Positions 16,686 to 37,894 of a DNA stretch of 64,000 bases are shown here, in pieces. Each line of letters begins with the position of its first letter. Positions within the stretch are counted from its first letter, which is position 1. The DNA comes from Halobacteriales archaeon QS_4_69_31. GTDB taxonomy: Archaea; Halobacteriota; Halobacteria; Halobacteriales; Haloarculaceae. The notes under the pieces were generated by a model. The model was not told the origin of the DNA and made no database searches. It was given only the letters and a program-made list of their open reading frames with translations. Position numbers and translations under genes: made by a program. Location of the stretch: the NCBI GenBank assembly GCA_003021655.1, contig PXRP01000014.1:1-64000 (forward strand), in the 5' to 3' direction.

Positions 16686-16694
16686 AACATATAA
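16686..16694 (+). promoter_or_regulatory. TATA-like element of the enolase operon
   Basis: AACATATAA lies about 56-64 bases before the ATG at 16750, leaving a leader of about 30 bases with a strong Shine-Dalgarno GGAGGTGA seven bases before the start. This is a leadered transcript, unlike many neighbours. Confidence 0.45.
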
Positions 16695-16749
16695 CAGCGG
16701 TCCGGCCCACCCACCGACAACCGGACGAACGCAACGCGGAGGTGACACC

Positions 16750-17982: not shown

Positions 17983-18007
17983 GTGGGCGCGTGGCGACGC
18001 TCCCGCC

Positions 18008-19162: not shown

Positions 19163-19246
19163 GAGTACCGCTCTCGCGGCCGGACGCGTGGGATCTGGAC
19201 GGACGTCCGCAAGTTTTTTCAAGAGTCCGAATCACGTTGTGTGCGT

Positions 19247-20260: not shown

Positions 20261-20270
20261 GGTGACACCG

Positions 20271-21086
20271 ATGAGTACGGACAAACCACTGCTCGAAGTC
20301 GAGAACCTGCACAAACACTTCGGGTCGATCCGCGCACTGGACGGCATGGACCTCCGTGTCAACGAACAGGAGATACTGGGACTGGTCGGCGACAACGGCG
20401 CCGGCAAGAGCACCCTGATCAAGTGTCTCGTCGGCTACCACCAGCCCGACGCCGGCGAGCTCGACTGGAAGGGCGAACGGGTCAACTTCCAGAACCCCGA
20501 CGAGGCCCTCGACGCGGGGATCCGCGTCGTCTACCAGGACATCGGCCTCGCGGACACGATAAGCGTCGCCCGGAACCTCTTCATCGGCAGCGAACCGACC
20601 AAAAACGGGCGCCTCGACATGAAAAAGATGCACCGCGAGGCCGAGAAGGTCCTCGACGACATCGGGCTGAAGTCGCTGAGCGACCCGACACTGCCCGTCG
20701 AGAACCTCTCTGGCGGGGAACAACAGAGCGTCAAGATCGGCCGCGCGCTGTACTTCGACGCCGACCTGCTCGTCCTCGACGAACCCCTCCGGGCGCTCTC
20801 GGTCAAGGAAGGCGAGAAGGTCCTCCGGACCCTCAAACGCACCAAAGAGCAGGGCGTCTCGATGATCTACATCACGCACAACATCTTCCACGCCTACGAA
20901 GTGGCCGACCGCTTCCAGCTGATCGACAACGGACACAACGCCGGCGAGTTCGAGAAAGACGAGCTTGACGGCCCACAACAGCTGGTCGAATCGCTGAAGT
21001 ACGTCGCCGGGGGCGGCGACCTCGAAGACGCGGACGAACCCGGACCCGTCGAGGAGGAGACCGACGTCGCCGACAGCGCGTCGTGA
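20271..21086 (+). CDS. ABC transporter ATPase, single-domain RbsA/FrcA type
   Basis: A 271-residue ATPase. Walker A is GDNGAGKST, the signature LSGGEQQSVKIGRAL and Walker B LLVLDEPL. Only one ATP-binding domain is present, as in FrcA/XylG-half forms, so it should work as a homodimer instead of the fused RbsA type. The start is 10 bp after the permease stop, with GAGGTGA just upstream. The conserved DEPTAALS is DEPLRALS here, a minor change next to the D-loop. The C-terminal tail is acidic. Confidence 0.92.
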   Translation: MSTDKPLLEVENLHKHFGSIRALDGMDLRVNEQEILGLVGDNGAGKSTLIKCLVGYHQPDAGELDWKGERVNFQNPDEALDAGIRVVYQDIGLADTISVARNLFIGSEPTKNGRLDMKKMHREAEKVLDDIGLKSLSDPTLPVENLSGGEQQSVKIGRALYFDADLLVLDEPLRALSVKEGEKVLRTLKRTKEQGVSMIYITHNIFHAYEVADRFQLIDNGHNAGEFEKDELDGPQQLVESLKYVAGGGDLEDADEPGPVEEETDVADSAS

Positions 21087-21163
21087 CCGCCCGCCGCTTT
21101 GTCCCGACCCCACTCTCGCTCTCTCGCCCGCTCGCGCGCCGGCGCCCGTTCCCACACCGCCGA

Positions 21164-21173
21164 AATATTTATG
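21164..21173 (+). promoter_or_regulatory. TATA box of the binding-protein gene
   Basis: AATATTTATG lies 31-40 bases before the ATG at 21204. An extra promoter here would allow the binding protein to be made in excess over the membrane parts, as is common. Confidence 0.55.
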
Positions 21174-21203
21174 TGGAGTGTGATTATTAATCGTGCATGT
21201 ACT

Positions 21204-22322
21204 ATGAGCGGCAAGCGAATCGAAGGTATGAAGCAGGCACGCTCTGGCATACAGGTATCCAGGCGAGAGGTCATCGCGACGTCGGGCACCGCCGGTCTGG
21301 TTGGGTTGGCCGGCTGTGGTGGGAGTGACGGCACCGGCGGCGACGGTGGCGGTGACGGCGACGGCGGCGGTGACGGCGACGGCGGCGGAACCCAGGGGTC
21401 AGTCGACACCGACGCCACACAGGAGGATTTCACCATCACGTTCATCCCCCACTCGAGCGGGGCGTCGGACCCGTTCTGGGCGATCGAAGAGAAGGGGTGG
21501 AGTGCCGCGGTCGACCAGCTCAGCGTCGAGGGGCAGTTCCAGGGCCCGACGGAGTTCGACCCACAGCAGCAGGTCCAGAACATCAACTCGGCCATCTCGT
21601 CGGGGGTGGACGGCATCGCCACCTCCATCTCCGACCCGGACCTGTTCGACGACCCGCTCCAGCGGGCCCAGGAGGAGGGGATCCCGGTCATCGCGGTCAA
21701 CATCCCCGAGTTCGGCGAGCGGACGCTCCCCTATCAGGGGTACGTCGGCAACGACGAGACCGTCGTCGGTAACGAAGTGGCCTCGAACGCGCTCGAAGAC
21801 TTCCAGGAGGCCACTGGCGAGATGCCAGCACGCGCCGTGATCCCGAACCACCAGCCCGGGAACACCGTCCTCGGGTTGCGGTCGGACGGGATCAAGGAAG
21901 TGATGAGCAACAACAACATTTCGGTCGACGAGATCGCCACGTCCTCGGACCCCAGCGAGAACATCAGCTCCCTGTCGAGCTACCGGTCGTCGAACAGCGA
22001 CGTCGACATCGTGTGTTCGCTCGGCCCCGCGTCGGGCGAGCCCGCGATCCAGTGGATCAACGAGAACGACCTCCAGGGCGAGGTGTACGTCGCCGGGGTC
22101 GACATCACGGAGAAGATCCAGCAGGCCATCGAGAACGGGGTCTACTTCGGGACGGTCATCCAGCAGCCGTACCTCCAGGGGTACCTGGCCGCCCACTACC
22201 TGGCACAGAAGCTCGTCAACGGCATCCTCGCGCCGACCGTGACGCCGACCGGGCCGACCTGGATCGACGACACGCGGCTGGACCTGGTCCGGACGCAGAT
22301 CCAAAACACCGGCGGCGCCTGA
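21204..22322 (+). CDS. RbsB-type sugar/polyol-binding lipoprotein
   Basis: A 372-residue protein. A Tat motif (SRREVIATSG) and lipobox LAGC are followed by a Gly/Asp repeat linker of about 30 residues. The mature part is a periplasmic-binding-protein type 1 fold (Peripla_BP_4): FIPHSSGASDPFWAIEEKGW, AISSGVDGIATSISDPDL, and YVAGVDITEKIQQAIENGVY. It should capture the substrate outside the cell for the permease/ATPase pair upstream. Ligand cannot be assigned; relatives bind ribose, xylose, inositol or erythritol-like polyols. Confidence 0.9.
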   Translation: MSGKRIEGMKQARSGIQVSRREVIATSGTAGLVGLAGCGGSDGTGGDGGGDGDGGGDGDGGGTQGSVDTDATQEDFTITFIPHSSGASDPFWAIEEKGWSAAVDQLSVEGQFQGPTEFDPQQQVQNINSAISSGVDGIATSISDPDLFDDPLQRAQEEGIPVIAVNIPEFGERTLPYQGYVGNDETVVGNEVASNALEDFQEATGEMPARAVIPNHQPGNTVLGLRSDGIKEVMSNNNISVDEIATSSDPSENISSLSSYRSSNSDVDIVCSLGPASGEPAIQWINENDLQGEVYVAGVDITEKIQQAIENGVYFGTVIQQPYLQGYLAAHYLAQKLVNGILAPTVTPTGPTWIDDTRLDLVRTQIQNTGGA

Positions 22323-22348
22323 GACCGCCGCGCCGAGTCCGGCGGTTC

Positions 22349-22442
22349 CCACGTACGGGCCGCCCTCGCTCCGTCCTCTCACCGTCTCCCCGGCCCCCAC
22401 GTACGGACCGCCGTCTCCGTCCTCTCACCGTCTCCCCGGCCC
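22349..22442. repeat. Tandem duplication, two copies of about 47 bp
   Basis: A unit beginning CCACGTACGG and ending in CACCGTCTCCCCGGCCC occurs at 22349 and again at 22397, with one short length difference. It lies between the ends of the binding-protein gene and the convergent isomerase gene and has no coding role. Confidence 0.75.
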
Positions 22443-22478
22443 GGGTGCCGGCGCGAGGACCGGCCCCGCGAGCGACGG

Positions 22479-23297
22479 TCAGCGGCCGCCGGTGACCGCC
22501 TCCCAGTACGCTTTGTTCTCCTTGGCGTGGACCAGCAGTTTCTCGGTCCGGTTCTCGACCTCGACGGTGTAGTGGCCGTCGTAGCCGGCCGCCGCCAGCG
22601 CCCCGTGGACCGCCGCGAAATCGAGGACGCCCTCGCCCAGGTCGGTGAACGACCGGAAGTAGTTGATGACGTTGTCGAGGTGGGGCCGTCCCCCGGAGAG
22701 GGCGTCGCGGTTCGCGGCGAAATCGGCGGTCGGCGCGACGTCCTTGAGGTGGACGTAGGCGATGTCGTCGCCGAACCGCTCGACGGCGTCGGTGACGTCG
22801 CCCTCGGGGTAGTGCTCCCCGTAGGGGTACCAGTGGGCAGTGTCGAAGAGGAGTTCGAGGCCGTCGACGGCCGCCAGGAACCGGTCGACCTCGTCCGGGC
22901 GTTCGACGTGGGTGCCGCCGTGGTGGTGGAGGACGGGGGTAAGGCCCGCCTCACGGGCCGCGTCGGCGACGGTCGCGAACCGCTCCCGGACGGTGTCGTC
23001 GTCGTTGCGGTGGCGCTGGGGCGGCAGGAGGCCGAGGAACTCCGCCCCGAGGTCGGCGACCGTTCCCGCCGCGTCGGCGACGTCGCGGGCGTCGGCGTCG
23101 GTTTCGAGCCAGTCGCCCATCACGCAGTACAGCTCCAGCCCGTGGGTGTCGAGCCACTCGGCGACCGCCCCGGGACCGACCGCCCGCACCTTGCCGAGAC
23201 CGACCTCGACTCCGTCGTACCGGCACGCGCCCACGTCCGCGATGCCGGTTTCGAGCCGTTCCGCGTCGTACATGAGTGTCGTGTACCCGAGACCCAT
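22479..23297 (-). CDS. Sugar-phosphate isomerase/epimerase-fold TIM barrel (IolE/IolO-like)
   Basis: A 272-residue AP-endonuclease-2-type barrel. Likely metal ligands are in LHHHGGTHVE (E132), FDTAHW (D152, H155), YVHLKD (H183) and YTVEVEN. The family includes inosose dehydratase IolE, the Thermotoga epimerase IolO, xylose-isomerase-like and hydroxypyruvate-isomerase-like enzymes. Next to an RbsBCA importer and a Gfo/Idh dehydrogenase it may isomerise or dehydrate a keto-polyol; this is inferred. It is divergent from the LLM oxidoreductase. The ATG at 23297 gives a normal first beta strand (MGLGYTTLMY). Confidence 0.85.
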   Translation of the reverse strand: MGLGYTTLMYDAERLETGIADVGACRYDGVEVGLGKVRAVGPGAVAEWLDTHGLELYCVMGDWLETDADARDVADAAGTVADLGAEFLGLLPPQRHRNDDDTVRERFATVADAAREAGLTPVLHHHGGTHVERPDEVDRFLAAVDGLELLFDTAHWYPYGEHYPEGDVTDAVERFGDDIAYVHLKDVAPTADFAANRDALSGGRPHLDNVINYFRSFTDLGEGVLDFAAVHGALAAAGYDGHYTVEVENRTEKLLVHAKENKAYWEAVTGGR

Positions 23298-23378
23298 ACG
23301 CCGTGGTTGGACGACGCCGATCAAATAGCTTCGGGTGGAACAACACTGAATAGCGACCGGTCACATGTTCTAGTCGAG

Positions 23379-24356
23379 ATGGTCAGCGTCGACTACATGG
23401 CTCACCAGGAGCAGTACAGCCCCTCGACGTTGCTCGACTACGCCGGCCGCGCCGAGCGGGCGGGCTACGAGTTCGTCTGGACGTCGGACCACTTCCACCC
23501 GTGGTTCCACACGGGCGGGGAGGCGGGCTTCGCGTGGTCGTGGCTCGGCGCCGCGACCCAGCGGACGGACCTGCCGGTCGGGACCTACGTCACCCCCGCC
23601 GCCCAGCACTACCACCCGGGGCGGATCGCACAGGCGTTCGCGACCGTCGGCGAGATGCACGACGAGCGGGTCGTCCTCGGACTGTCGACCGGCGAGGCGA
23701 TGAACGAGAAACCGCTGGGCCAGCCCTGGGACGAGTACCCCGTCCGGCGGGACCGCCTCGAAGAGACCCTCGAAATCGTGCGGGAACTGTACGACAGCGA
23801 CGGGTTCGTCAGCTACGACGGCGAGCACTTCTCGCTCGAGGACGCACACCTCTACACGATGCCCGAGGACCGTCCGGAGGTCCACGTCGCCGCCAACGGC
23901 CCGAGCACGGCGCGGCTGGCCGCGCGGTACGCCGACGGTTTCATGACCGTCATCACCGGCGAGGAGTTCACCGACCGGCTCTACCCCGCGGTGCGGTCCT
24001 ACGCCGAGGAGGAGGGTCGCGACCCCGACGCGCTCGAGACGACCGTGCTCGTCATCGTCTCGTACGACCCCGACTACGAGGCGGCCTTCGAGGCCACCCG
24101 GCCGTGGTGGGCGACCACCCAGGACGTCTTCGACCGGGCGGTCGCGGACCCCCGGGAGATCGAGGCGCTGGGCGAGGAGGCCACCCGCGAGGAGATAGAG
24201 GAGAAGTTCCTGGTCGCCGACGACCCCTCGACGGTCGCCGCGGAGGTCGAGCGCCTCGCCGAGATGGGCTTCGACAGGGTCGCGCTCGCCAACACCAGCC
24301 CCGCCCCCGAACGGCTGTTCGAGGTGATGGGCGACGAGGTCATTCCGTCGCTGTAA
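23379..24356 (+). CDS. LLM-class flavin/F420-dependent oxidoreductase
   Basis: A 325-residue luciferase-like monooxygenase-fold protein. FVWTSDHFHPW near residue 35, GTYVTPAAQHYHPGRIAQ and LGLSTGEAMNE match the F420-dependent glucose-6-phosphate dehydrogenase (FGD) subgroup. Members of this subgroup oxidise a sugar hydroxyl or aldehyde with F420, which haloarchaea make. A very long frame open from 22527 is a shadow of the opposite gene; the ATG at 23379 is the family-like start. It shares an 81-bp divergent promoter with the isomerase. Confidence 0.87.
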   Translation: MVSVDYMAHQEQYSPSTLLDYAGRAERAGYEFVWTSDHFHPWFHTGGEAGFAWSWLGAATQRTDLPVGTYVTPAAQHYHPGRIAQAFATVGEMHDERVVLGLSTGEAMNEKPLGQPWDEYPVRRDRLEETLEIVRELYDSDGFVSYDGEHFSLEDAHLYTMPEDRPEVHVAANGPSTARLAARYADGFMTVITGEEFTDRLYPAVRSYAEEEGRDPDALETTVLVIVSYDPDYEAAFEATRPWWATTQDVFDRAVADPREIEALGEEATREEIEEKFLVADDPSTVAAEVERLAEMGFDRVALANTSPAPERLFEVMGDEVIPSL

Positions 24357-24378
24357 GGGCGCCGGCCCGCTCGCCGCC

Positions 24379-25449
24379 TCACCCGTCGGCGTCCCGGTAG
24401 TGTCTGAAGAGGTCGACGATGACGTCGAGGTCGTCGCGTGCCTCCGCGAACGGCGTCCGGACCGCGGCCTCGCCCTCGATACACCGCAGGAAGTGTGCCA
24501 GTTCGCGCTTGAACGGCTCCTCGTAGGAGGGCGTCCGGACCGTCTCGGTCAGTTCCTCGCGCCCCCGCTTGACCCGGAGTTCCGTTGGCGCGTTCCTGAT
24601 GAATGGGTTCGAGAAGTCCACTGTCACCATCCCGTCGGGGCCGTCGACGCGGACGAACTCCTCGAACCACTTGCGGTCGGAGTCGCCGGTCTCCAGGACG
24701 CAGGTGACGCCGCCCTCGTAGGTGAGGTGGGCCGTCGCGTAGCGGCCGTCGGCGAACACGTCGACGTGGTCGACGCGCTCGACCGCGCCGAACAGCCCCC
24801 GCAGGACGTTGACGTCGTGACAGACGTGTTCGAGCTGGAAGTCGTAGGCGTCGACGAGGCGGTCGTCGTCGGTCCCGACCGCCTGCTCGATGTCGGCGCG
24901 CCGCCTGGCGGCGCTCTCCTCGAGGAACGACCCGGGCGGGTCCCCGGCCACCAGGTCGTAGACCTCGGTCACGACGCGCTCGTGGTCGGGGTCGACATCG
25001 TAGGCGGTGACTAGGTCGACCGCGTCCAGCTCCTCGACCGCCTCGCGTGCCCGCTCGTAGGCGGGGTCGTAGCGCTTCATGTACGCGACCATCGCGGTCG
25101 CGTCCGACGCGGCGTCGGCCTCGACCATCCGCTCGGCGTCCGCAGGCGTCGCCGCGATCGGCTTCTCGACGAGCGTGTGGACCCCGGCCCCGAGCGTGTC
25201 GACGACGACGTCGGCGTGTTCGTGTGACGGCGTGAGCACCACGACCGCGTCGAGGTCGTCGCCGGCGTCCGCGAGGAGCGACTCGTGGTCCGCGTACACG
25301 TTCGGGACGTTGTACCTGGCCGCGAGTTCGCCGGCCCGCCCCGTCGCGGGGTCGACGAGGGCGTGCAACTCCGCGTCGGGGAGTTCGGCGAGATACGGGA
25401 CGTGCATCACCTGTGCCACTAGCCCACAGCCGATGACTCCGAATCGCAT
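24379..25449 (-). CDS. Gfo/Idh/MocA-family NAD(P)-dependent sugar/polyol dehydrogenase
   Basis: A 356-residue two-domain oxidoreductase. The Rossmann motif is GVIGCG at the N-terminus. Catalytic-region EKP is at 95-97 (LVEKPIAA). The C-terminal domain has QLEHVCHDVNVLRGLFG, in which the His are typical of the substrate pocket. Family members oxidise myo-inositol (IolG), glucose or other cyclic polyols and sugars. The close set of RbsBCA importer, isomerase and this gene suggests the first oxidation step. Its promoter lies in the unusual T-rich intergenic region to the right. Confidence 0.9.
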   Translation of the reverse strand: MRFGVIGCGLVAQVMHVPYLAELPDAELHALVDPATGRAGELAARYNVPNVYADHESLLADAGDDLDAVVVLTPSHEHADVVVDTLGAGVHTLVEKPIAATPADAERMVEADAASDATAMVAYMKRYDPAYERAREAVEELDAVDLVTAYDVDPDHERVVTEVYDLVAGDPPGSFLEESAARRRADIEQAVGTDDDRLVDAYDFQLEHVCHDVNVLRGLFGAVERVDHVDVFADGRYATAHLTYEGGVTCVLETGDSDRKWFEEFVRVDGPDGMVTVDFSNPFIRNAPTELRVKRGREELTETVRTPSYEEPFKRELAHFLRCIEGEAAVRTPFAEARDDLDVIVDLFRHYRDADG

Positions 25450-25962: not shown

Positions 25963-26316
25963 ATGAGATACGTCCGAGTCGCGGGTAGTGACGGGTCCCG
26001 TCTGGCGGTCGAGACGGGCCAGGCGGCGTACGACCTGACGGGCGTCGAGGACCCCCACGACCTCACGATGAGCACGACTATCCGCCGGGACGGCAGGAGG
26101 GTCTACCACGACTCCACTCACACCGGCGAGATGGTCCGCACCTGCGAGGAACTCGTCTCGTATCTCACCCGCCACAACGTCGTCCCCGAGACGACCGTCC
26201 TGCTGACCGGGACGGCGCTGGTCCGGGACGACGAGTTCACGCTCCGCCCCAACGACGACGTCGAGATAACCGTCGAACCCATCGGGAGCCCGCACAACAC
26301 CGTCGTAACGGTATGA
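25963..26316 (+). pseudogene. Internally deleted fumarylacetoacetate-hydrolase-family gene
   Basis: The 117-residue product joins two ends of an FAH-family protein. The first about 30 residues (MRYVRVAGSDGSRLAV) look like the family N-terminus. From about residue 36 (STTIRRDGRRVYHDSTHTG, then MVRTCEELVSYLTRHN, LLTGTALVRDD and NDDVEITVEPIG) it is the family C-terminus. The central region of about 150-170 residues that carries the metal ligands is missing, with the frame kept. Intact members include 2-keto-3-deoxyarabinonate/xylonate dehydratases. It is unlikely to be catalytic. It still has a promoter and lies 55 bp before the acid-sugar kinase. Confidence 0.7.
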
Positions 26317-26371
26317 CTCCGACCGACCGACGACCGGGCGGCCGTCGACGACACAGGGGAAGTGGCGACTG

Positions 26372-27646
26372 ATGGGCGGGGTCGCGCTGGTGGCCGACGA
26401 CCTCACGGGTGCGATGGACACGGCCCAGGGGTTCGCCGCACGCGGGTACCGGACGGCGGTGGTCGCGGTGCCGGGCACACGGGCGGGCGCGGCGGCCGAC
26501 CGGGGCGGGACGGGGGTCCTGGGGGTCAACACCGACACCCGGTCCGCGGCGGCCGACGCGGCGGCCCGGAGAGTCCGCACCGCCGTCACGAGCGTCGGGG
26601 CGGAGATGGTCTACAAGAAGGTCGATTCGACGCTCCGGGGGAACGTGGCAGTCGAGGTCGACGCGGCGCTGTCGGCCGCCGGGGCCGCGGTCGGGCTGTT
26701 CGCGCCGGCGTTTCCCGCCGTCGGGCGGACCACCCGGGAGGGCGTCCATTACGTCGACGGGACGCCGGTCGCGGAGACGGCCTACGGCGACGACCCTGCG
26801 GGGCCGCGGTCGTCCCGGGTCGCGGACCGCTTCGGCGCCGTCGACCGGCCGGTCGAGACGGTGCCCGCGGCGGTCGTCGAACAGGGGGCCGACCGCGTCG
26901 CGGCGGCCGTCGAGGAGGCCATCGCGGGCGCCGGGCGGCCGCCGGTCGTGGTCTGTGACGCGTCGACCGAGAGCGACCTCGCGGCGGTGGCCGACGCCGG
27001 GCGGGCGTTCGACGCGCTCTACGCCGGCAGCGGCGGGCTCGCGGCCTACGTGGGCGTCCCGGGCGCGGCCGGGGACGGCCCCCGCTCGCTGGACGGTCCG
27101 CTGGGAGCGCCCCTCGGGGTCGTGGGGAGCACAAACGAGACCACGCTCGCCCAGCTCGGGCGCGTGCCCGACGAGGACCTGGTCGTACTCGACCCCGAAC
27201 GGTTGCTCGCGGGGACCGCGCCCGGTGACGCGGCCGGTGTGGGCGAGCGCCTCCGGGCGGGGCGGCCGGTCGTGGTCACCGCGGCGGCCGACCGGGAGAC
27301 GGTCGACCGCACGCTCGCGGCCGGACGCGACCGGGGGCTATCGGCCGACGAGGTGCGCGCCCGCGTCGCGACCGGCCTGGCGGAGACGGCGGCCGCCGCG
27401 GTCCGGGCGGCGCCGGTCTCTGGGGTGGTGCTCAGCGGCGGCGACGTGGCCGTGGAGGAGTTGCGCGCGCTGGACGCGACGACGGTCGAACTCACCGGGA
27501 CCGAGGTCGAGACGGGGCTCCCGGTGGGCGCGGTCGCAGACGGCTCGAGCGTCGGGACGCCCGTCGTCACCAAGGCGGGCGGGTTCGGCTCGCCGGCGGC
27601 CATCGTTAACTGTCTCGAAGCCCTCGGAAGAGACGAGAACCGATGA
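26372..27646 (+). CDS. Four-carbon acid sugar kinase (DUF1537 family)
   Basis: A 424-residue protein. Substrate-binding N-terminal motif DDLTGAMDTAQGF (9-21) and KKVDSTLRGN (82-91) are diagnostic. The nucleotide-binding C-terminal domain has GSTNETTL, LSGGD and TKAGGFGSP. The family (OtnK, DtnK, LtnK) phosphorylates 3-oxo-tetronate, D-threonate, D-erythronate or related acids with ATP. The next gene, overlapping by four bases (ATGA), encodes a PdxA2-type 4-phosphate dehydrogenase. That is the known DtnK-PdxA2 pairing, so a 4-phospho-D-threonate or erythronate intermediate is likely. Very alanine-rich, high-GC coding. Confidence 0.92.
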   Translation: MGGVALVADDLTGAMDTAQGFAARGYRTAVVAVPGTRAGAAADRGGTGVLGVNTDTRSAAADAAARRVRTAVTSVGAEMVYKKVDSTLRGNVAVEVDAALSAAGAAVGLFAPAFPAVGRTTREGVHYVDGTPVAETAYGDDPAGPRSSRVADRFGAVDRPVETVPAAVVEQGADRVAAAVEEAIAGAGRPPVVVCDASTESDLAAVADAGRAFDALYAGSGGLAAYVGVPGAAGDGPRSLDGPLGAPLGVVGSTNETTLAQLGRVPDEDLVVLDPERLLAGTAPGDAAGVGERLRAGRPVVVTAAADRETVDRTLAAGRDRGLSADEVRARVATGLAETAAAAVRAAPVSGVVLSGGDVAVEELRALDATTVELTGTEVETGLPVGAVADGSSVGTPVVTKAGGFGSPAAIVNCLEALGRDENR

Positions 27647-28650
27647 CCCGCGACCGTCCGATACTCGCTGTCACGATGGGCGACCCCGCCGGCGTCGGCC
27701 CGGAGGTCATCGCCAAGGCCGTCCCCGCAGCCCACGAGCGGGCCCGGGCGGTCGTCGTCGGCGACGCCGACGTGATGGCCGCCGCCGTCGAGGTCTGCGG
27801 GATGGACCTGTCGGTCGACCGCATCGCGGACGTCTCGGCCGCCCGGTTCGCGCCGGGCACCGTCCCGGTGCTCGACCTGGACAACGTCGACACGCTGGTC
27901 CGGGGGGAGGTCCGGGAGGATTACGGCGCCGCGAGCCTCGCGTACGTCGAGCGCGCTATCGAACTCGCGCAGGCCGGCGACGTCGACGCCATCGTGACGG
28001 CGCCGATCAACAAGCAGGCGACCGCCCTCGCCGGGAGCGACTACGCGGGCCACACGGGCATGCTCGCCGACTACACCGACACGGAGTCGTACGCGATGAT
28101 GCTCGTCGAGGGTGACCTCAGGGTGACCCACGTCAGCACGCACGTCCCGTTGCGAGCGGCCTGTGACCTCGTGACGACCGAGTCCGTCCTCGAGACGGTC
28201 CGCCTGACCGACGAAGCGCTCCGGGACCTCGGCGTCGACGCGCCGTCGGTCGCGGTTGCGGGGCTGAACCCCCACGCCGGCGACGGCGGCCTGCTGGGCG
28301 ACGAGGACCGCGACGCGGTCGAACCCGCCGTCGAACGCGCCCGGGCGGCGGGGATCGACGCCGAGGGTCCCGAGTCGCCCGACACCGTCTACGTCCGCGC
28401 CGCCCGCGGCGAGTTCGACTGCGTCGTCTCGATGTACCACGACCAGGGACACATCCCCGTCAAGATGCTCGGGTTCGCCGGCGGCGACGCCGTCTCGGGC
28501 GTGAACGTGACCATCGGCCTCCCCATCGTCCGGACGAGCGTCGACCACGGCACCGCGTTCGACATCGCCGGCGAGGGCGTCGCGTCCGAACGAAGTATGG
28601 TCGAGGCGGTCGACGTCGCCGTCCGGATGTGCGAGGCCCGCGACCGGTGA
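27643..28650 (+). CDS. pdxA2: PdxA2-type 4-phospho-threonate/erythronate dehydrogenase
   Basis: A 335-residue protein of the PdxA family. GDPAGVGPEV (13-22), HTGMLADYT, GLNPHAGDGG and YHDQGHIPVK supply the phosphate, metal and substrate residues. In DUF1537 pathways PdxA2 oxidises D-threonate or D-erythronate 4-phosphate, which decarboxylates to dihydroxyacetone phosphate. A pyridoxal biosynthesis role is unlikely in an archaeon, which uses PdxS/PdxT. Translation is coupled to the kinase gene by an ATGA overlap. Confidence 0.92.
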   Translation: MTRDRPILAVTMGDPAGVGPEVIAKAVPAAHERARAVVVGDADVMAAAVEVCGMDLSVDRIADVSAARFAPGTVPVLDLDNVDTLVRGEVREDYGAASLAYVERAIELAQAGDVDAIVTAPINKQATALAGSDYAGHTGMLADYTDTESYAMMLVEGDLRVTHVSTHVPLRAACDLVTTESVLETVRLTDEALRDLGVDAPSVAVAGLNPHAGDGGLLGDEDRDAVEPAVERARAAGIDAEGPESPDTVYVRAARGEFDCVVSMYHDQGHIPVKMLGFAGGDAVSGVNVTIGLPIVRTSVDHGTAFDIAGEGVASERSMVEAVDVAVRMCEARDR

Positions 28651-28697
28651 GTACGGGCCGGTTTGGTCCCGCCAGTACGGGCCGGCTGGTCCCGCCA
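28651..28697. repeat. Short tandem repeat (24 and 23 bp)
   Basis: GTACGGGCCGG followed by TTTGGTCCCGCCA, then a second copy lacking one base. The array starts just after the pdxA2 stop codon and decays into GGTCGGTCAGGT repeats. Confidence 0.75.
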
Positions 28698-28767
28698 GTA
28701 CGGTCGGTCAGGTCCTGTCCGGTCCACCGGTCGGTCAGGTTCCATCGGGCGGTTGGGGGACCGGGCG

Positions 28768-29871
28768 TCAGCCGCCACGCTCGACGAGGACCTCGTCCAG
28801 ACACCGGCGACCCAGTTTCACGCCGTCGGGGGTGACCACCTTGGACATGAGCAACAGCGACGTGGCCCGTCGCCGCAGTGGCTCGACCGACGCGTTCCCG
28901 CCGCTCGCGAAGTGGGTGACCGCGAGCGTATACGCCCCCCAGACGGCCGCGAGGCCGTACTCGGCAGCCAGGGCCCGCCCCGCCTGCGCGGCCGTCGACG
29001 AGTCGTTCCAGCGGTCGACCGTCAGGACGACGCGGACACCCTCGGGCGTCAGGTACGTCGACTCGTGTCTGACCGCCGGCGACCACGGGATCGAGAGCGG
29101 GCTCGGCCCGTAGAAGGCAGTGGCGTTGACGCTCAGTACGTGCTCCCACGATTCCAGTCCCGTGCTGACCGCGGCCTGGACCGGGACCGGGCGCAGCGAC
29201 GCGGGACGGGCGTCCCGCGGCGGCGGCGGGCACACCGGCAGGCCCCGTGTCGGCGTGGACGCGGCCGGCCCCCGGTCGACGGTCCCGAGAGACACCGGCG
29301 TGACCGTCGTCTCCCGGCCGCCCCCCGCGACCGGCCCGCCGTCCAGTCCGACCGCCGCCGCGGCGACGACGACCAGTAGCGACGCGGCCAGGGCCGCCAG
29401 GAGTCGAACCGATAGCCGGTCGACGATGACGCCGACCGCCGGAGGCGGGGACGGCACCCGGAGCCGTCGGCGGCCCCCGTCGTCGACCCGGTCGGGGTCC
29501 CGGCCCCCGCTCCCCGCCACGCCGTCGAAGTAGTCGGCCGAGAGCGCCGCGAACTGCTCGTCCGCGATGGCGTACAGCGCCATCCGGTGGAGCGCCCGCG
29601 CGTCGACGACGTTGGTGCCGTCGGCCAGCGTCTCGACGTCGGTGGGGCGGGCGACGACGACGACGTCCGCCGCGACCGGGGCGTCCGGGAGCGACCGTCC
29701 CACCCACACAGTGTCGGCGTCGTCGCGCGGCCGAGCGGCGAAGCAGTCGGTGTCGGTCACCGCCGTTTTGAACCCGCGGGCGGCGTACAGATCCGCGACG
29801 AACTGCGTGAGCCTGTCCGGGTCGAGTCCGTCGAGGCGCCGGACGAACTCGTCGAGGGCGGGGCGGGTCAT
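28768..29871 (-). CDS. Membrane protein with degenerate restriction-endonuclease-like N-terminal domain
   Basis: A 367-residue protein. Residues 1-120 (LDGLDPDRLTQFVADLYAARG, then DVVVVARPTDVETL) resemble the Mrr/REase-like domain found in haloarchaeal membrane proteins, but a complete PD-(D/E)xK set is not evident. A single membrane helix lies at about 157-178 (LLAALAASLLVVVAAAAVGL). The C-terminal half has no recognised fold. The ATG at 29871 is used; a longer frame runs into tandem repeats. It does not look functionally tied to the surrounding sugar genes. Confidence 0.65.
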   Translation of the reverse strand: MTRPALDEFVRRLDGLDPDRLTQFVADLYAARGFKTAVTDTDCFAARPRDDADTVWVGRSLPDAPVAADVVVVARPTDVETLADGTNVVDARALHRMALYAIADEQFAALSADYFDGVAGSGGRDPDRVDDGGRRRLRVPSPPPAVGVIVDRLSVRLLAALAASLLVVVAAAAVGLDGGPVAGGGRETTVTPVSLGTVDRGPAASTPTRGLPVCPPPPRDARPASLRPVPVQAAVSTGLESWEHVLSVNATAFYGPSPLSIPWSPAVRHESTYLTPEGVRVVLTVDRWNDSSTAAQAGRALAAEYGLAAVWGAYTLAVTHFASGGNASVEPLRRRATSLLLMSKVVTPDGVKLGRRCLDEVLVERGG

Positions 29872-29875
29872 CGGT

Positions 29876-29948
29876 CTGTCGGCCGTCGCGCCGGGGCCTG
29901 TCGGCCGTCGTGCCGGGGCCTGTCGGCCGTCGCGCCGGGGCCTGTCGG
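29876..29948. repeat. 22-bp tandem repeat, three copies
   Basis: CTGTCGGCCGTCGCGCCGGG plus GC, repeated at 29876, 29898 and 29920, with one substitution in copy two and a partial fourth copy. It starts five bases upstream of the membrane-protein start codon and may affect its promoter. Confidence 0.8.
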
Positions 29949-30078
29949 TGCGACCCACGGCGGGTAGTTTCTTGAACCTGTTGGTGGTCGGGCGACGGGG
30001 CCGGCGTCGGCCCGCCCCAGGTGCCCTCTGTGTGGCGAACGCGGACGGCGGTCCGGGAACCGTCGGGAGCGGACGGCG

Positions 30079-30148
30079 CGGACGGCGGCCGAGGAACGAC
30101 CAGCCCGGACGGCGGCCGAGGAACGACCAGCCCGGACGGCGGCCGGCG
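30079..30148. repeat. 27-bp tandem repeat, two and a half copies
   Basis: The unit CGGACGGCGGCCGAGGAACG plus ACCAGCC occurs at 30079 and 30106; a partial copy starts at 30133. Non-coding, just beyond the 3' end of the LarA-like gene. Confidence 0.8.
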
Positions 30149-30166
30149 AACTAGCCCGGAAGCGAG

Positions 30167-31483
30167 TCAGTAGGGGTCGTCGGGCAGCGCGCCGTCCTCG
30201 AACGAGAGCGGGCGGAGGTCGCCGACGGTGACGTTCTCGGCCGCTTCGAGGTCGGGGACGACCGCCTCGGAGACGACCAGTTCGCCGGGTTCCATCGTGT
30301 TGCGGATCCGCGCGACGCGGAGGTCGGCAGGGTCGGGCGTCCCGGTGACCGAGGGGGCCAGCAGGAACGCGCTCGCGTCGTCGGGCACGACGAGCGGGAC
30401 CTTCGCGCGCCGCGGTTCGCCGCTGGTGACGATGTTCACGTACGTGTCGGCGAGGTCCAGGTTCGCGACCAGGTCACGGTGGACCATGTCGGCCAGTCCG
30501 ACGCCGAGCCCGTTGCCGTGTGAGGGCGGTGTGAGCGAGCGCGCGTACACCCGGGTGTAGTCGGGCGACTCGGGTTCGGTCTCGCCGCGGAAGTACGTCC
30601 GGCCGAGGACGTTCGTGTCCATGCCCGTTCCGCTGACCTCCTTGCCCATCTCGTCGACGGCGAGCAGGTCCAGGTCCGCGACGGGGAGCGTCGGGAGGGT
30701 CTCGTAGGCCAGATCGAGCAGTTCGGGTTCCCGCGTCGGGATCTCGTCGACGGGCACCCCCTCGACGTGCGCGGCCCGGTCGTGCTGGTTCTCGACGAGC
30801 GCCAGGCCGCCCACCACCGGCAGTTCCTCGAACAGGACCGCCGCCCGGTCCCGTATCTCGGCGGCCATGTCGCCGTCCAGTCCCGCGTTGTGGAGCAGTT
30901 CCGCACCCTCCCGGTTCCCCATCCCGATGACGGCCATCTTGCAGAGGCCGGACTCGATGTCGCCGTTGAAGTCGGTATGCGGTTTGACCCGGTTGGCCAG
31001 CACGACCGCGTCCGCCTCGGCGGCGTGGCGGTCCACGTAGACCGGGAGCCCGTCCTGCCGGCCGACCGCGACGGTCTCTGTCGACGACCGGACGGGACAG
31101 CCCAGCGACTCCTCGGTCATCCCCAGGTCCGCGAGCACCTCGCGCTGGCCCTCGGCCGTCGCCCCGCCGTGGCTCCCCATCGCCGGGAAGACGAACGGCT
31201 CGTGACCCCGTGCCTGCAGTTCCGCGACGGCCCCCGCGACCATCTCGGGGAAGTCGCGGATGCCGCGACTGCCGGCGGTGACCGCGACGGTCGCGCCCGG
31301 TGGGAGCGACGCGGCCGCGAGGACGTCGTCGACCGCGTCCCGACCCGCGGCGCGAACGTCCGCGACGGTCTCGACGTCCCACGCGACCGACGCCGGCGCT
31401 ACCCGCGGCAGGTCCGCGACCGTCACGTCGCTGGCCGCCGTCAGTCGCTCCCGGGACGGCGCCCGCAGTTGAAGACCAGTCAC
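30167..31483 (-). CDS. LarA-like nickel-dependent racemase/epimerase (DUF2088)
   Basis: A 438-residue protein. AVTAGSRGI (about 67-75), AMGSHGGATAEGQ (H105) and the stretch from ANRVKPHTDF to LCKMAVIGMG (H169, K182) match by eye the positions of His108, His174 and cofactor-linked Lys184 of lactate racemase LarA. LarA relatives epimerise 2-hydroxy acids, including sugar acids. Near the acid-sugar kinase and PdxA2 it may interconvert diastereomers of an aldonate or tetronate. The cofactor-making LarB, LarC and LarE are not in the window. A GTG at 31483 is preferred to a TTG at 31504. Confidence 0.8.
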   Translation of the reverse strand: MTGLQLRAPSRERLTAASDVTVADLPRVAPASVAWDVETVADVRAAGRDAVDDVLAAASLPPGATVAVTAGSRGIRDFPEMVAGAVAELQARGHEPFVFPAMGSHGGATAEGQREVLADLGMTEESLGCPVRSSTETVAVGRQDGLPVYVDRHAAEADAVVLANRVKPHTDFNGDIESGLCKMAVIGMGNREGAELLHNAGLDGDMAAEIRDRAAVLFEELPVVGGLALVENQHDRAAHVEGVPVDEIPTREPELLDLAYETLPTLPVADLDLLAVDEMGKEVSGTGMDTNVLGRTYFRGETEPESPDYTRVYARSLTPPSHGNGLGVGLADMVHRDLVANLDLADTYVNIVTSGEPRRAKVPLVVPDDASAFLLAPSVTGTPDPADLRVARIRNTMEPGELVVSEAVVPDLEAAENVTVGDLRPLSFEDGALPDDPY

Positions 31484-31504
31484 ACGTAGACGTTGCCGCG
31501 TCAA

Positions 31505-31723: not shown

Positions 31724-32893
31724 TCAATCCTCGGCGGTGACCGACCGGGAGACGGCCCGCGAGGACCCGTCGGCCTCGGAGGTGCCGTGGGCGACGGCCT
31801 CCCCCGAGTCCCGGTCGAAGAGGTGGATGTGGTCCTCGTCGAAGGTGACGGTGAGCGTCTCGCCGACGGCGGGCTCCACCTCGGTCGGGGCCCTGTACCG
31901 GAACTCCTGGCCGCCGCTTTCGAGGTAGATGAAGTTGTCCGACCCGACGACCTCGACGACCTCGACGGTCCCCTCGACGGTCTTCCCCGCGGGCGCGTCG
32001 TCCCCGAGGCGGACGTCTTCGGGCCTGACCCCGATGATGTACTCGGTGACGCCGGCGTCGGCGACGATCTCCGCCAGACCGTCCGAGACCTCGTAGGACC
32101 AGTCGTCGTCGGGCCCGTCGAGGCGGAGGTGCTGCCCGTCGAGTGTCACGTCGACGAAGTTCATGCTGGGCGAACCGATGAAGTCCGCGACGAAGTGGTT
32201 GGCGGGGCGGGCGTACACCTGCTTGGGCGGGCCGACCTGCTGGAGTTCGCCGCCGTTGAGAACGGCGATCCGGTCGGCGAGGGTCATCGCCTCCTCCTGG
32301 TCGTGGGTGACGTAGATGGTCGTGATGCGGAGTTCGTTGTGGATCTGTGCCAGTTCCGTCCGCATGTGCTTGCGGAGTTTGGCGTCCAGGTTCGAGAGGG
32401 GTTCGTCGAACAGGAACACCGCCGGTTCCCGGACGATGGCCCGCCCCGTCGCGACACGTTGCTGTTGCCCGCCCGACAGCGACCCCGGCTTCTTGTCCAG
32501 GAGGTCCCCGATACCCATCATCTCCGCCGTCTCGGTGACGCGCCGGTCGATCTCCTCGTCGGTCAGGTCGGTGCTGAGTTTGAGCCCATAGGCCATGTTG
32601 TCCCGGACGGTCTTGTGTGGGTAGAGGGCGTAACTCTGGAACACCATCGCGATGTCGCGGTCTTTGGGGGCCTTGTCGGTTATCGCCTCGCCGTCGATCC
32701 GGATCGTCCCGTCGGTGACAGTCTCGAGGCCGGCCAGCATCCGGAGCGTCGTCGACTTCCCACACCCCGACGGGCCGACGAACACCAGAAACTCGCCGTC
32801 CTCGACCGAGAGGTCTAGCTCCTCGACGGCCACGACCGTGCCCGAGGAATCGTCGTACACCTTCGTGACCGAGTCGAAGTCTATGGCACCCAT
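31724..32893 (-). CDS. MalK/UgpC-type ABC transporter ATPase
   Basis: A 389-residue ATPase. Walker A is GPSGCGKST (40-48), Q-loop FQSYALYPH, signature LSGGQQQR and Walker B LFDEPLSNLDAKLR. The C-terminal regulatory TOBE/OB region (about 240-389, IGVRPEDVRLGDD) is typical of the carbohydrate-uptake CUT1 class. It would energise the permeases at 33117 and 33966. Unlike the RbsA-type ATPase of this window, it belongs to a different importer class, so the region carries two separate uptake systems. Confidence 0.94.
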   Translation of the reverse strand: MGAIDFDSVTKVYDDSSGTVVAVEELDLSVEDGEFLVFVGPSGCGKSTTLRMLAGLETVTDGTIRIDGEAITDKAPKDRDIAMVFQSYALYPHKTVRDNMAYGLKLSTDLTDEEIDRRVTETAEMMGIGDLLDKKPGSLSGGQQQRVATGRAIVREPAVFLFDEPLSNLDAKLRKHMRTELAQIHNELRITTIYVTHDQEEAMTLADRIAVLNGGELQQVGPPKQVYARPANHFVADFIGSPSMNFVDVTLDGQHLRLDGPDDDWSYEVSDGLAEIVADAGVTEYIIGVRPEDVRLGDDAPAGKTVEGTVEVVEVVGSDNFIYLESGGQEFRYRAPTEVEPAVGETLTVTFDEDHIHLFDRDSGEAVAHGTSEADGSSRAVSRSVTAED

Positions 32894-33116: not shown

Positions 33117-33953
33117 TCAGTAGCCGCCGCCGATACCCTCGCCGACGTAGCGCTGTGCGAGCGTATAGAAGATGACGGGCGGCACGATCAGCAGGACGGC
33201 CGAGGCCATCAGGACGTTCCACTGTCGCATCACGTCGGAGCCGAGGATGTAGTGGATAGCGACGGTGGCGGTCCGCTGGGACTTGTCGGTGGTGAGGATG
33301 AACACCCACAGGAAGTTGTTCCAGGCGATGATAAACGAGAAGAGGCCGGCGGCGGCGACCGCCGGCAGCGACAGGGGCAACACGACCCGCAGGAACGCCG
33401 TCAGTTCGCTGTGGCCGTCGAGCAGGGCGGCCTCCTCGATGTTCTCGGGGATGCCCTGCCGGAAAAACCCCTGGAGGAGCCAGATCGCCTGTGGCAGCGT
33501 GAAAATAGAGAGCGCGATGATGACCGCCTCCAGCGTGTTGATCATGTTCAGCCACGTGAACACCTCGTAGACCGGGATGGTGAGGACGATCCAGGGGAAC
33601 ATGATCGTGAACACGGCGGTGTAAAACAGGAGCTTCCGGCCGGGGAAATCGAGTCGCGCGAAGGCGTACGCGCTCGGGATGGCGAACGCGAGCGAGATGA
33701 CGGTCGCGCCGAGCGAGACGATGATGCTGTTCGTGAAGAAGGTCACGAAGTCGAACCGGCTCCACACCTGACCGTAGGATTTGAGCGTGAAATTGTCCAG
33801 ACTCGGGAGGTACGGTGCGTTCGGGTCGATCGCGGTAAACGAGTCCAGAAACGACGTCCGGAGGACCCAGAGATAGGGCAACAGCGCCCAGAGCGCTATC
33901 GCTCCGAGTCCGAGGTACAGCAGCGTTCGCGTTCGTCTGGTGTCGTTGAGCAT
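33117..33953 (-). CDS. CUT1 ABC transporter permease (MalG type)
   Basis: A 278-residue membrane protein with six helices. The EAA loop EEAALLDGHSELTAFLRVVLP is the contact site for the ATPase. It is encoded between the MalF-type permease (12 bp upstream) and the ATPase. It imports a sugar or glycoside-type solute. Confidence 0.93.
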   Translation of the reverse strand: MLNDTRRTRTLLYLGLGAIALWALLPYLWVLRTSFLDSFTAIDPNAPYLPSLDNFTLKSYGQVWSRFDFVTFFTNSIIVSLGATVISLAFAIPSAYAFARLDFPGRKLLFYTAVFTIMFPWIVLTIPVYEVFTWLNMINTLEAVIIALSIFTLPQAIWLLQGFFRQGIPENIEEAALLDGHSELTAFLRVVLPLSLPAVAAAGLFSFIIAWNNFLWVFILTTDKSQRTATVAIHYILGSDVMRQWNVLMASAVLLIVPPVIFYTLAQRYVGEGIGGGY

Positions 33954-33965: not shown

Positions 33966-34901
33966 TCAGACGTAGAGTTCCTCCTCGCCTTTGATCACGG
34001 TCACGTAGAACACCGCCGCGGTCATCGAGATGACGATCATCGCCATCCCGACGGTGTATCCCCGGCCGAAGGAGTTGTTGACGTACGCGACCCTGTAGGT
34101 GAGGATACTCAACAGCATCGTTCTCGTGCCCGGTCCGCCGCCGGTGAGTTCGAACGGCTGGGCGAACTCCGCGACGTTGTACGCGGTGCGCAGCGCCAGG
34201 ATGATGATCGTGGGCGTGATCAGGTGTGGCAGCGTCACGTCGCGGAACCGGCGGAGGCGGCCAGCGCCCGCCAGGGCCGCCGCCTCGTACTGGTCGCTGG
34301 GGATGTTGATCAGCGCGGCCGCGTAGATGATCGCCGCGTAGCCGTAGTCGTGCCACGTCTGAGCGACGATGAGCGACACGTACGGCCACAGCCCTTCCGA
34401 CAGGAAGCCGGGTGCGACGAGCCCGAGGTCGGCGAACACTCGGGGGAGGAACCCGAACGACGAGTCGAGGAACCACAGCCAGATGACCCCGCCGGCGAGG
34501 GGCGCCGAGAAGTACGGCGACATGACGACGGCGCTTATCCACCGGCGGTAGTTCGACAACTCCGAGAGCAACAGCGCCGCGAGCCCGCCGAGCACCAGCT
34601 GCAACCCGGTCACGCCGAAGACGAACACGAGCGTCCAGCCGAACGCGAACAGGAACAGGTCGTTGGTCAGGAGCCAGTAGTAGTTGTCCAGCCCGATGAA
34701 CTGCCCCGACAGCCCGAGTTTCGTGTCGGTGAACGTCAGGTAGACGCCCCGAACGATGGGGTAGTAAAACAGCAGCGAAAACATCAGGAACGTCGGGAAG
34801 ATGAACAGGTACCCCACCCAGTTCTCCCGCAACCGGTCCGTGATCGTTCGCTCCTCGAGACCGTATCTTTCCCGTATTTGTTCGTCTGACTGGTACGACA
34901 T
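33966..34901 (-). CDS. CUT1 ABC transporter permease (MalF type)
   Basis: A 311-residue membrane protein with six helices. The EAA loop reads YEAAALAGAGRLRRFRDVTLP. A soluble N-terminus (MSYQSDEQIRERYGLEERTI) precedes the first helix at about 28-48. The ATG at 34901 is used; the frame stays open to 35090. No binding-protein gene follows; the only matching one in the window is at 44310-45836. Confidence 0.92.
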   Translation of the reverse strand: MSYQSDEQIRERYGLEERTITDRLRENWVGYLFIFPTFLMFSLLFYYPIVRGVYLTFTDTKLGLSGQFIGLDNYYWLLTNDLFLFAFGWTLVFVFGVTGLQLVLGGLAALLLSELSNYRRWISAVVMSPYFSAPLAGGVIWLWFLDSSFGFLPRVFADLGLVAPGFLSEGLWPYVSLIVAQTWHDYGYAAIIYAAALINIPSDQYEAAALAGAGRLRRFRDVTLPHLITPTIIILALRTAYNVAEFAQPFELTGGGPGTRTMLLSILTYRVAYVNNSFGRGYTVGMAMIVISMTAAVFYVTVIKGEEELYV

Positions 34902-35150
34902 CTGACTCAGGTGGTCGGCGCCTGCGGATAAAAACATTACGCCGGTTCCGGACGATCCGGACGCGGGCGGGCGGTCGTGACGCCCGTCGCGGGGCCACTC
35001 ACGCGGGCCCCGCCGCCGCGGCGTCTCTCGGGGTGGCGTCTCCCCGAGCCTCGACTCCCGGGGGCGTCGCATCCCCGGACGGGGTGTCACCTCTCGGGTC
35101 GTCGCCTCTCCGGACGGCGGCCGTTCTGTCGCCGTCTCCGGGCGGCGACC

Positions 35151-36055
35151 TCACTCCTCGTCCCGGAGCGACCGCTGGACCGCGGCGATGTCGGCGTCGC
35201 GGTCGGCGAGGACCTCCTCGGCGGGGCGGTCGTAGGTGAAAAAGCCACGTCCGGAGGCAACCCCCGTGTGTCCCTGGTCGAGGTACTCGTCGAGGACGGG
35301 GCTGGGCTCTTTCGTGTTGGACAGTTCGGGGACGAGGTCCTCGGCGACGGTCCTGACGAGGTCGATGCCGTTGACGTCGATGGTCTCGAAGGGGCCGATG
35401 ACAGCGGTCCGTGTCGCGTAGCCGTCGCGGATGGCCCGGTTGATGTCGTCAGCCGACGCGACGCCCGCCTCGAGGAGGTGCAGACACTCCCTGAAGACGG
35501 CGAACTGGACGCGGTTCCAGACGAATCCGGGGACGTCCTTTTCGACGCGGATCGGGTCCCGGTCGACGGACTCCAGGAACGACGCGACCCGGTCGACCGT
35601 CTCGTCGGTCGTCTCCTTTCCCGCCACGACCTCCACCGGCGTCCGCAGGTACGGCGGGGTTGGATGGCCGCGCCGATGTCGGTGACCGGAATGCCGGACG
35701 TGTTCGACGCCAGGACCGCATCCGCCGGCGCGGCGGCCGCCACCTCCCGGAACACCGACTGCTTGGTTTCGAGGTCTTCCGGGACCGTCTCCAGGACGAG
35801 GTCGGCGTCGGCGACGGCGGCGTCCGTCTCCAGCGTGAACGTGGTCTCGTCGAGCACGTCGTCGGCCTCGAGCGACGCGACGCCGGTCCGGTCGAGCAGG
35901 TCGACGACGTCGGCGATCCGCTCGCGCGCCTCGTCGAGGTTCGACTGTCTGTGGTCGAGGAGTGTCGGCGACAGACCGTGTGCCGCGAAGTGGACGACGA
36001 ACCCGTGACCCATATCGCCGGCTCCGATGACTGTGACGTTCTCGTACTCCGTCAT
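35151..36055 (-). pseudogene. 3-hydroxyacyl-CoA-dehydrogenase-family gene broken by a small deletion
   Basis: The N-terminal frame (VTVIGAGDMGHGFVV; NAD-binding domain) reads to SNTSGIPVTDIGAAIQ. The remainder continues in another frame at about 35660 with PPYLRTPVEVVAGKETTDE, through the C-terminal domain to 35151. In intact relatives the two parts are joined by roughly 13-15 residues that include GTHWWNP with the catalytic His. A deletion of about 40 bp that removes the His and shifts the frame explains this. The intact gene would have been an NAD-dependent hydroxyacyl-CoA, gulonate or related hydroxy-acid dehydrogenase. The rest is well preserved, so the lesion looks recent. Confidence 0.82.
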
Positions 36056-36124
36056 AGTACGGTAGATCCACCCGTGCCGCCAAATAACTGTGGGGACGCT
36101 CCGCCGGGGCCGTTCTGGCACCTA

Positions 36125-36133: not shown

Positions 36134-36156
36134 CGGCCGGTTCCCGAATGGGATCC

Positions 36157-37755: not shown

Positions 37756-37894
37756 CGCGGACTCTGGCGCGACTGCGGAGGACGCAGCCGCCGAGTGACT
37801 CTACGACGTGACCACCGAGTGACTCCGCGTGAGGGCGTCGAGACTACCGTGGTCGGGTGGTTCCGTGTCGCGACGCGACCGGCCGGCGCCGCAG

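Follow-up and report, generated by a model that had tools for sequence, protein, structure and literature searches.

A LarA homologue linked to a DUF1537 kinase and PdxA2 in haloarchaea points to a putative route for four-carbon sugar acids

In a 64,000-nucleotide stretch of DNA from Halobacteriales archaeon QS_4_69_31 (the window), a gene pair encoding a DUF1537-family kinase and a PdxA2-type enzyme is found close to a gene for a LarA homologue. The locus raises the question of whether the three proteins act on the same acid and, if so, on which one. The window was therefore analyzed together with 391 genomes of the class to which its salt-loving archaeal host belongs. Its features are collected in Table 1.

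Table 1. Features of the window around the LarA homologue.
Feature	Coordinates	Strand	Evidence
FAH-family remnant, 117 aa	25963-26316	+	PF01557, positions 120-214 only
DUF1537-family four-carbon acid sugar kinase (SBD_N + NBD_C), 424 aa	26372-27646	+	PF07005, PF17042
PdxA2-type 4-phospho-tetronate dehydrogenase/decarboxylase, 335 aa	27643-28650	+	PF04166, TIGR00557
ORF between PdxA2 and LarA, no functional annotation	28768-29958	-	No match in Pfam or NCBIfam
LarA homologue of NPN isomerase group 22 (clade T), probably a C2 epimerase of tetronates	30167-31483	-	NF052515, fold, residues
MalK/UgpC-type sugar ABC transporter ATPase, adjoins LarA	31724-32893	-	NF008653, 451.7 bits (cut-off 432)
Two ABC transporter permeases, same transporter as MalK	33117-33953, 33966-35090	-	ORFs; permease families match 33966-35090

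The kinase and PdxA2 genes are both intact and share the ATGA overlap described in the initial annotation, at positions 27643-27646. The LarA open reading frame opens at a TTG at 31504 (30167-31504, minus strand); the alignment with relatives begins at an in-frame GTG, at 31483, from which the complete protein counts 438 aa. This GTG agrees with the end of the acid-sugar module that had been proposed for 25963-31483, but the start of that span opens the separate FAH-family remnant. The distance of 1.5 kb given between the PdxA2 and LarA genes proved correct. The two genes lie tail to tail, and since they converge on opposite strands they do not form one operon in the window, where the kinase-pdxA2-larA unit is rearranged. 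A promoter and terminator scan of positions 28600-30200 returned nothing with the consensus used, which is ill-suited to archaea.

The LarA homologue scored 485.4 bits against NF052515 (“nickel pincer cofactor-dependent isomerase, group 22”; cut-off 400) and passed the Pfam Lar_N model marginally (23.6 bits, cut-off 23.3). Group-22 LarA proteins above the cut-off were found in 178 of the 391 genomes, and the open-access literature yielded no reaction or assay for any of them. A fold search with the predicted LarA model (pLDDT 74.6 overall) retrieved 12 LarA-family entries with Z scores of 18.0-20.3, followed by an unrelated family at 7.0; a PDB search with a sequence profile of the LarA alignment returned no LarA and one chance match (E 0.48). 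Copies at ≥52% identity, termed clade T, are monophyletic (SH-aLRT 98) in a tree of 48 clade-T sequences, 28 drawn from the other haloarchaeal ones and five from bacteria; the 48 clade-T rows differ from the 48 copies counted below, as they include two named genomes (L009 and L010) and omit genome G267 and the second copy of G264.

In an alignment of 48 clade-T sequences with 71 further LarA sequences, every row carries Arg80, His112, His176, Lys189, His205 and Lys288. The active-site set consists of the two catalytic histidines and the pincer-binding Arg, Lys and His, assigned to L. plantarum positions from their order and spacing rather than by superposition. The His/His/Lys reported from the first reading of the sequence is thus present, as His112, His176 and Lys189, and invariant in relatives. 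In the same alignment Glu363, Arg366, Ala207 and Ser328 (445-aa numbering) are confined to clade T. This alignment was reduced from 121 to 119 sequences by removing two identical ones; two sequences on cut contigs (L016, L017) and one with a bad start choice (L146) were excluded, and the short stretches L019-L049, most of which are represented by longer versions, were omitted. In the model, stretches 289-313, 327-333 and 353-367 have a pLDDT below 50 and are probably part of the substrate pocket.

Clade-T LarA was found in 46 of the 391 genomes and the kinase in 55, with both present in 45 (Fisher p 5e-48, phylogeny not controlled), and the association stratified by genus gave a chi2 of 29.5 and a p of 5e-8 over 182 genomes. 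PdxA2 was found in all 55 kinase genomes and is absent, like the kinase, from G233, the sole clade-T genome without a kinase. Within 1.2 kb of the kinase lie 32 of the 48 clade-T copies, in five arrangements, including 20 kinase-pdxA2-larA operons from several families (for example in Halegenticoccus tardaugens). The remaining 16 copies comprise two at 2.5-7.7 kb from the kinase, nine at 18-36 kb, one at 81 kb, three with the kinase on another contig and one without a kinase. These co-occurrence and distance counts and the stratified test rest on match coordinates and on genus codes entered by hand, and counts from the gene-order map are minimums, because the map misses some PdxA2 genes that tblastn finds. 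When loci were picked by LarA alone, a kinase was present at 11 of 15 clade-T loci versus 2 of 64 other group-22 loci. Seven bacterial LarA relatives (40-47% identity) showed no kinase or PdxA2 by tblastn in the stretches compared.

Many genera contain all three genes and keep them clustered, so their linkage is not due to chance, and the link between LarA, kinase and PdxA2 is strong. Ten kinase genomes have no clade-T LarA, indicating that the epimerase is optional. The inclusion of LarA in an acid-sugar module is strongly supported by comparative genomics, through the operons and the 45 of 46 clade-T genomes, although in the window itself LarA lies outside the kinase operon.

Synthesis of the nickel-pincer cofactor depends on other genes, and the proposed check for larB, larC and larE elsewhere in the genome found all three. 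LarC (395.6 bits), LarE (283.3 bits) and LarB (215.0 bits) of the host score above their cut-offs and are unlinked to LarA. LarC was detected in all 46 clade-T genomes, but also in 333 of the 391 genomes overall, including 157 without a group-22 LarA; three LarA genomes, none of them with clade T, gave no larC match (G094, G235, G354). Given how common larC is across the class, the presence of larB, larC and larE is weak evidence.

The kinase matched both domains of its family above the cut-off (PF07005, 160.9 bits, 5e-47; PF17042, 81.3 bits, 1.5e-22). The best-scoring kinase model was D-threonate kinase (DtnK, NF047819), although the 202.7 bits are under its equivalog cut-off of 450; the OtnK model gave 87.8 bits, likewise under the 3-oxotetronate equivalog cut-off. 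The best solved relatives are 4xfm/4xgj (128 bits) and 4xfr/4xg0 (113 bits). PdxA2 scored 354.7 bits against PF04166, 369.6 bits against TIGR00557 (cut-off 290.35) and 314.8 bits against the D-threonate-4-phosphate dehydrogenase equivalog NF002891, under its cut-off of 583; its best solved relatives are 2hi1 (283.9 bits) and the D-threonate 4-phosphate dehydrogenase 6e85 (267.6 bits). Because the kinase falls below the D-threonate kinase cut-off, the identities of the two enzymes do not fix the exact acid.

Taken together, the three genes probably form a unit with which haloarchaea degrade four-carbon aldonic acids: clade-T LarA would invert C2 of a tetronate, and the kinase and PdxA2 would convert it to dihydroxyacetone phosphate (DHAP). 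Which acid is used, at which carbon and in which direction it is epimerised, and what is formed from it are points that we infer. LarB, LarE and LarC would make the nickel-pincer nucleotide that charges clade-T LarA, which may then invert C2 of the free acid, most likely interconverting D-erythronate and D-threonate, by proton-coupled hydride transfer between the two histidines. The kinase would phosphorylate O4 of whichever epimer it accepts, and PdxA2 would oxidise C3 to yield a 3-oxo acid that loses CO2 to give DHAP. D-threonate and D-erythronate differ solely at C2 and have the C3 configuration in common, and C3 is the carbon that PdxA2 oxidises, DHAP arising from 4-phospho-tetronate only; C2 epimerisation is for this reason the likeliest role of LarA. 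Such an epimerase would let one kinase/PdxA2 pair drain both epimers. LarA enzymes C2-epimerise D-gluconate and D-mannonate as their main activity and 4-deoxy-threonate and 4-deoxy-erythronate as side activities (PMC11770544, PMC7583248). The more specific proposal that clade T is a dedicated nickel-pincer tetronate 2-epimerase, which joins the D-erythronate and D-threonate branches for one kinase and PdxA2 and replaces the bacterial dehydrogenase/isomerase routes, we regard as evenly balanced.

The neighbouring genes bear on the choice of acid. Relatives of the MalK protein (66-69%) lie near clade-T LarA at seven loci, with the order of permeases and MalK kept at three of them. At the same seven loci, tblastn relatives (28-40%) of the protein encoded between PdxA2 and LarA lie between LarA and MalK, and this conservation argues that the gene is not a spacer. 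A GntP-family permease, of the aldonate:H+ symporter family, adjoins at least 11 of the 20 operons. The FAH-family remnant consists of the start and the C-terminal part of a gene of ~290 aa, from which ~175 residues are gone with the frame kept; its residues 28-117 align (58%) with residues 202-291 of a 291-aa FAH-family protein in a relative, and it is probably inactive. Full-length FAH-family genes lie near kinase-pdxA2 at four loci. Altronate/galactarate dehydratase, UxuA-like and enolase-superfamily genes are further neighbours in relatives, and triosephosphate isomerase or class II FBP aldolase genes near some clade-T copies are consistent with DHAP as the product.

A genuine unit for another 2-hydroxy acid, in which LarA acts on a branched or longer aldonate (a pentonate or an apionate-like acid) and the kinase and PdxA2 have matching specificity, is the main alternative, though an unlikely one. 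The kinase scores below both equivalog cut-offs, the dehydratase, UxuA-like, enolase-superfamily and FAH-family neighbours handle C5-C6 acids, and LarA has an ABC transporter of the sugar type beside it in the window. Against this stand the established chemistry of PdxA2, the aldolase and isomerase neighbours that fit DHAP, and the D-threonate-4-phosphate dehydrogenase among the closest solved relatives of PdxA2. Less likely again, LarA could be a bystander in a haloarchaeal sugar-acid island that serves lactate, glycerate or hexonate, as its nearest conserved neighbours in the window are the unannotated protein and the ABC transporter, and as 127 of the 179 group-22 LarA genomes have no kinase match. 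The latter count shows that other group-22 branches evidently have another role, but clade T itself is tied to the kinase by co-occurrence, by the genus-stratified association, by the contiguous operons and by the LarA-selected loci.

A role of PdxA and the kinase in vitamin B6 supply by salvage of 4-hydroxythreonine phosphate, with LarA unrelated, was rejected as highly improbable: an excerpt of PMC7954711 states that DUF1537 enzymes can phosphorylate 4-hydroxythreonine, and the TIGR00557 pdxA cut-off is passed, but PdxJ, the next enzyme, had no match in any of the 46 clade-T genomes and the host has PdxS (329.9 bits) of the other B6 route. Least probable of all is a pincer-based hydride reaction other than epimerisation, such as an internal redox shift to a 3-oxo acid, which has been raised for LarA groups without a catalytic residue (PMC7583248): clade T retains both catalytic histidines without variation, and the active LarA enzymes in the studies considered are racemases or epimerases.

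We found no LarA tied to DUF1537 or PdxA2 in the open-access literature, a search outside of which lie the supplementary genome-context tables of PMC7583248, and a clade-T tetronate 2-epimerase would, if true, be a LarA activity not yet described. Conservation of the operon, whose other two enzymes have known chemistry, reduces the candidates for one group-22 clade to a few testable substrates. Confirmation would add a new reaction for nickel-pincer enzymes and an archaeal tetronate route with a simple logic, in which the epimerase widens the diet of the kinase.

The clade-T protein shares with the LarA superfamily (NF052515 group 22) the fold, the Arg/His/His/Lys/His set, a score above the cut-off and larB, larC and larE in the genome; unlike other group-22 branches of the class, clade T is tied to DUF1537 and PdxA2. 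GntE, the D-gluconate 2-epimerase (LarAH19/LarAH20), is likewise a LarA-type enzyme that epimerises an aldonic acid at C2 and is encoded among sugar-acid genes, but its substrate is a hexonate, whereas the partners of clade T are tetronate enzymes. The bacterial D-threonate pathway DtnK-PdxA2, which Zhang and co-workers reportedly described in 2016, also combines a DUF1537 kinase with PdxA2, although the haloarchaeal kinase is under the DtnK cut-off; we know of no bacterial DtnK-PdxA2 unit with an epimerase. As outlined in excerpts of PMC12540250 and PMC10580937, the LtnD/DenD-OtnI-OtnK-OtnC tetronate pathways resemble the proposed route in their four-carbon acids, DUF1537 kinase and DHAP product, but they reach a 3-oxo acid by a dehydrogenase and an isomerase before phosphorylation instead of by C2 epimerisation.

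The kinase and PdxA2 reading frames are both intact and have in common the ATGA by which the initial annotation had them overlap, and the LarA-like protein belongs to the NCBIfam "nickel pincer cofactor-dependent isomerase, group 22" (485.4 bits, cut-off 400). The assembly that holds them as part of contig 14 is haloarchaeal, 2.74 Mb long and 82% complete. In the FAH-family remnant, at whose first position the initially annotated interval begins, the middle part is absent in frame when it is aligned to its 291-aa relative.

Genes of the window and of its genome
Feature	Position	Strand	Observation
DUF1537-family kinase	26372-27646	+	intact; well over Pfam family cut-off
PdxA2	27643-28650	+	intact; well over Pfam family cut-off
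LarA-like gene, 438 aa	GTG start at 31483	-	opposite to kinase and PdxA2; relatives align from this GTG
FAH-family remnant	ORF from 25963		residues 28-117 correspond to the 90 C-terminal residues of a 291-aa relative
396-aa gene	between PdxA2 and LarA		stays with clade-T LarA in relatives
MalK-type ABC transporter	after LarA		stays with clade-T LarA in relatives
Inositol-type module	17936-25449		scyllo-inosose 3-dehydrogenase IolM (538 bits, cut-off 450), ABC transporter, IolE-like TIM-barrel gene, Gfo/Idh oxidoreductase
3-Hydroxyacyl-CoA-dehydrogenase-like gene	35087-36121		N-terminal (3HCDH_N) and C-terminal (3HCDH) halves in two overlapping frames; a frameshift or assembly error
Two genes presumably related to thermosome/CCT chaperonins	36148-39062		conserved next to kinase-pdxA2 in relatives' loci L131, L134 and L154, and in L131 and L154 also next to a gene for a sugar-binding protein
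Second PdxA homologue	G000:C57:31892-32878		49% identical to the window's PdxA2

The window's LarA was used as query against 391 genomes of the class, of which 179 gave matches. An upper set of 48 copies in 46 genomes (at least 52% identity and at least 449 bits) was separated by a gap from the next match at 397 bits and was defined as clade T; it forms a single branch in a quick tree (SH-aLRT 98). The kinase was present in 55 genomes, all of which also carry PdxA2. Clade T and the kinase occurred together in 45 genomes, the kinase alone in 10 and clade T alone in a single genome (G233), which also lacks PdxA2. This co-occurrence is highly significant in a Fisher test that ignores kinship (p 5e-48) and holds when genera are treated as strata across the 182 genomes with LarA or kinase (chi2 29.5, p 5e-8); within one genus (g3), both are present in six genomes and both absent from 15.

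The proposed module of kinase, PdxA2 and LarA is thus real, and co-occurrence and gene order support it more widely than the window alone could. The kinase lies within 1.2 kb of 32 of the 48 clade-T copies, and 20 of these 32 show kinase-pdxA2-larA on one strand. The remaining close copies are head to head with larA (seven), tail to tail, which is also the window's orientation (G282, G138), kinase-larA with pdxA2 elsewhere (G333, G265) or larA-kinase-pdxA2 (G237). For the other 16 copies, the distance is 2.5 kb in the window, 7.7 kb in G136, 18-36 kb in nine and 81 kb in one; the kinase is on a different contig in three and missing in one. The parts and their linkage are a matter of observation. 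Many genomes carry the unit as an operon, of which the window shows a rearranged version. Among loci fetched for LarA alone, the kinase was found in 11 of 15 clade-T loci versus 2 of 64 others, and therefore the link is mainly that of clade T and not of group 22 as a whole. In two loci (L079 and L114, both 1-18001), a group-22 LarA outside clade T has kinase-pdxA2 in its vicinity, along with UxuA- or FAH-family genes; these copies are possibly further sugar-acid epimerases.

By established enzymology, the kinase would form a 4-phosphate that is then oxidised at C3 by PdxA2, with decarboxylation leaving DHAP. C2 is the position inverted by LarA enzymes. Because C2 alone sets D-threonate (2S,3R) apart from D-erythronate (2R,3R), a LarA acting as C2 epimerase of tetronate would open both acids to one kinase/PdxA2 pair. 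We infer C2 as the site of epimerisation, as well as the kinase's preferred epimer; an epimerase is the best explanation for LarA, its activity being predicted. The 10 genomes with kinase and PdxA2 and no clade-T LarA fit this proposal, as kinase and PdxA2 can use a single epimer without an epimerase. Near some clade-T copies there are genes for triosephosphate isomerase and class II fructose-bisphosphate aldolase, in keeping with DHAP as product, and a GntP-family permease (PF02447, 313 bits; TIGR00791, 284 bits, slightly below the cut-off of 292.75) adjoining at least 11 of the 20 operons points to aldonate uptake. An aldehyde ferredoxin oxidoreductase gene immediately upstream of three operons (L099, 4202-5917; L121; L136) may be a source of the sugar acid. 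C6-acid dehydratase, FAH and enolase-superfamily genes are also found nearby and leave room for the unit to act on an acid other than tetronate.

The roles of DUF1537 and PdxA2 are described in PMC9997740, PMC7954711 and PMC12540250. No report linking LarA to DUF1537/PdxA2 was found among the open-licence papers searched, whose titles and abstracts yielded no erythronate/threonate epimerase in a pathway. Likewise, no open-licence paper was found on haloarchaea with threonate or on COG3875 with COG1995 or COG3395.

LarB, LarC and LarE, sought elsewhere in the window's genome, are each encoded on other contigs and score over their cut-offs; a single LarA copy was found in this incomplete genome. 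larC was found in all 46 clade-T genomes and in 176 of the 179 with any group-22 LarA; since it occurs in 333 of the 391 genomes, the cofactor genes agree with a functional LarA and do not prove it. A structure model of LarA from ten sequences (mean pLDDT 74.6) aligns to 12 LarA-family PDB entries, among them the racemases for malate and lactate and 4nar from Thermotoga, at Z 18.0-20.3, the next family reaching Z 7.0. The His/His/Lys expected of LarA is present as His112, His176 and Lys189, which together with Arg80, His205 and Lys288 are invariant in the 48 clade-T and 71 other LarA sequences. According to PMC11770544, the LarA-type GntE acts on D-gluconate/D-mannonate, and C2 epimerisation of 4-deoxy-threonate and 4-deoxy-erythronate is among the minor LarA activities. 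By order and spacing, the six invariant residues match those that PMC7583248 and PMC11770544 give for L. plantarum LarA: R75, H108, H174, K184, H200 and K298.
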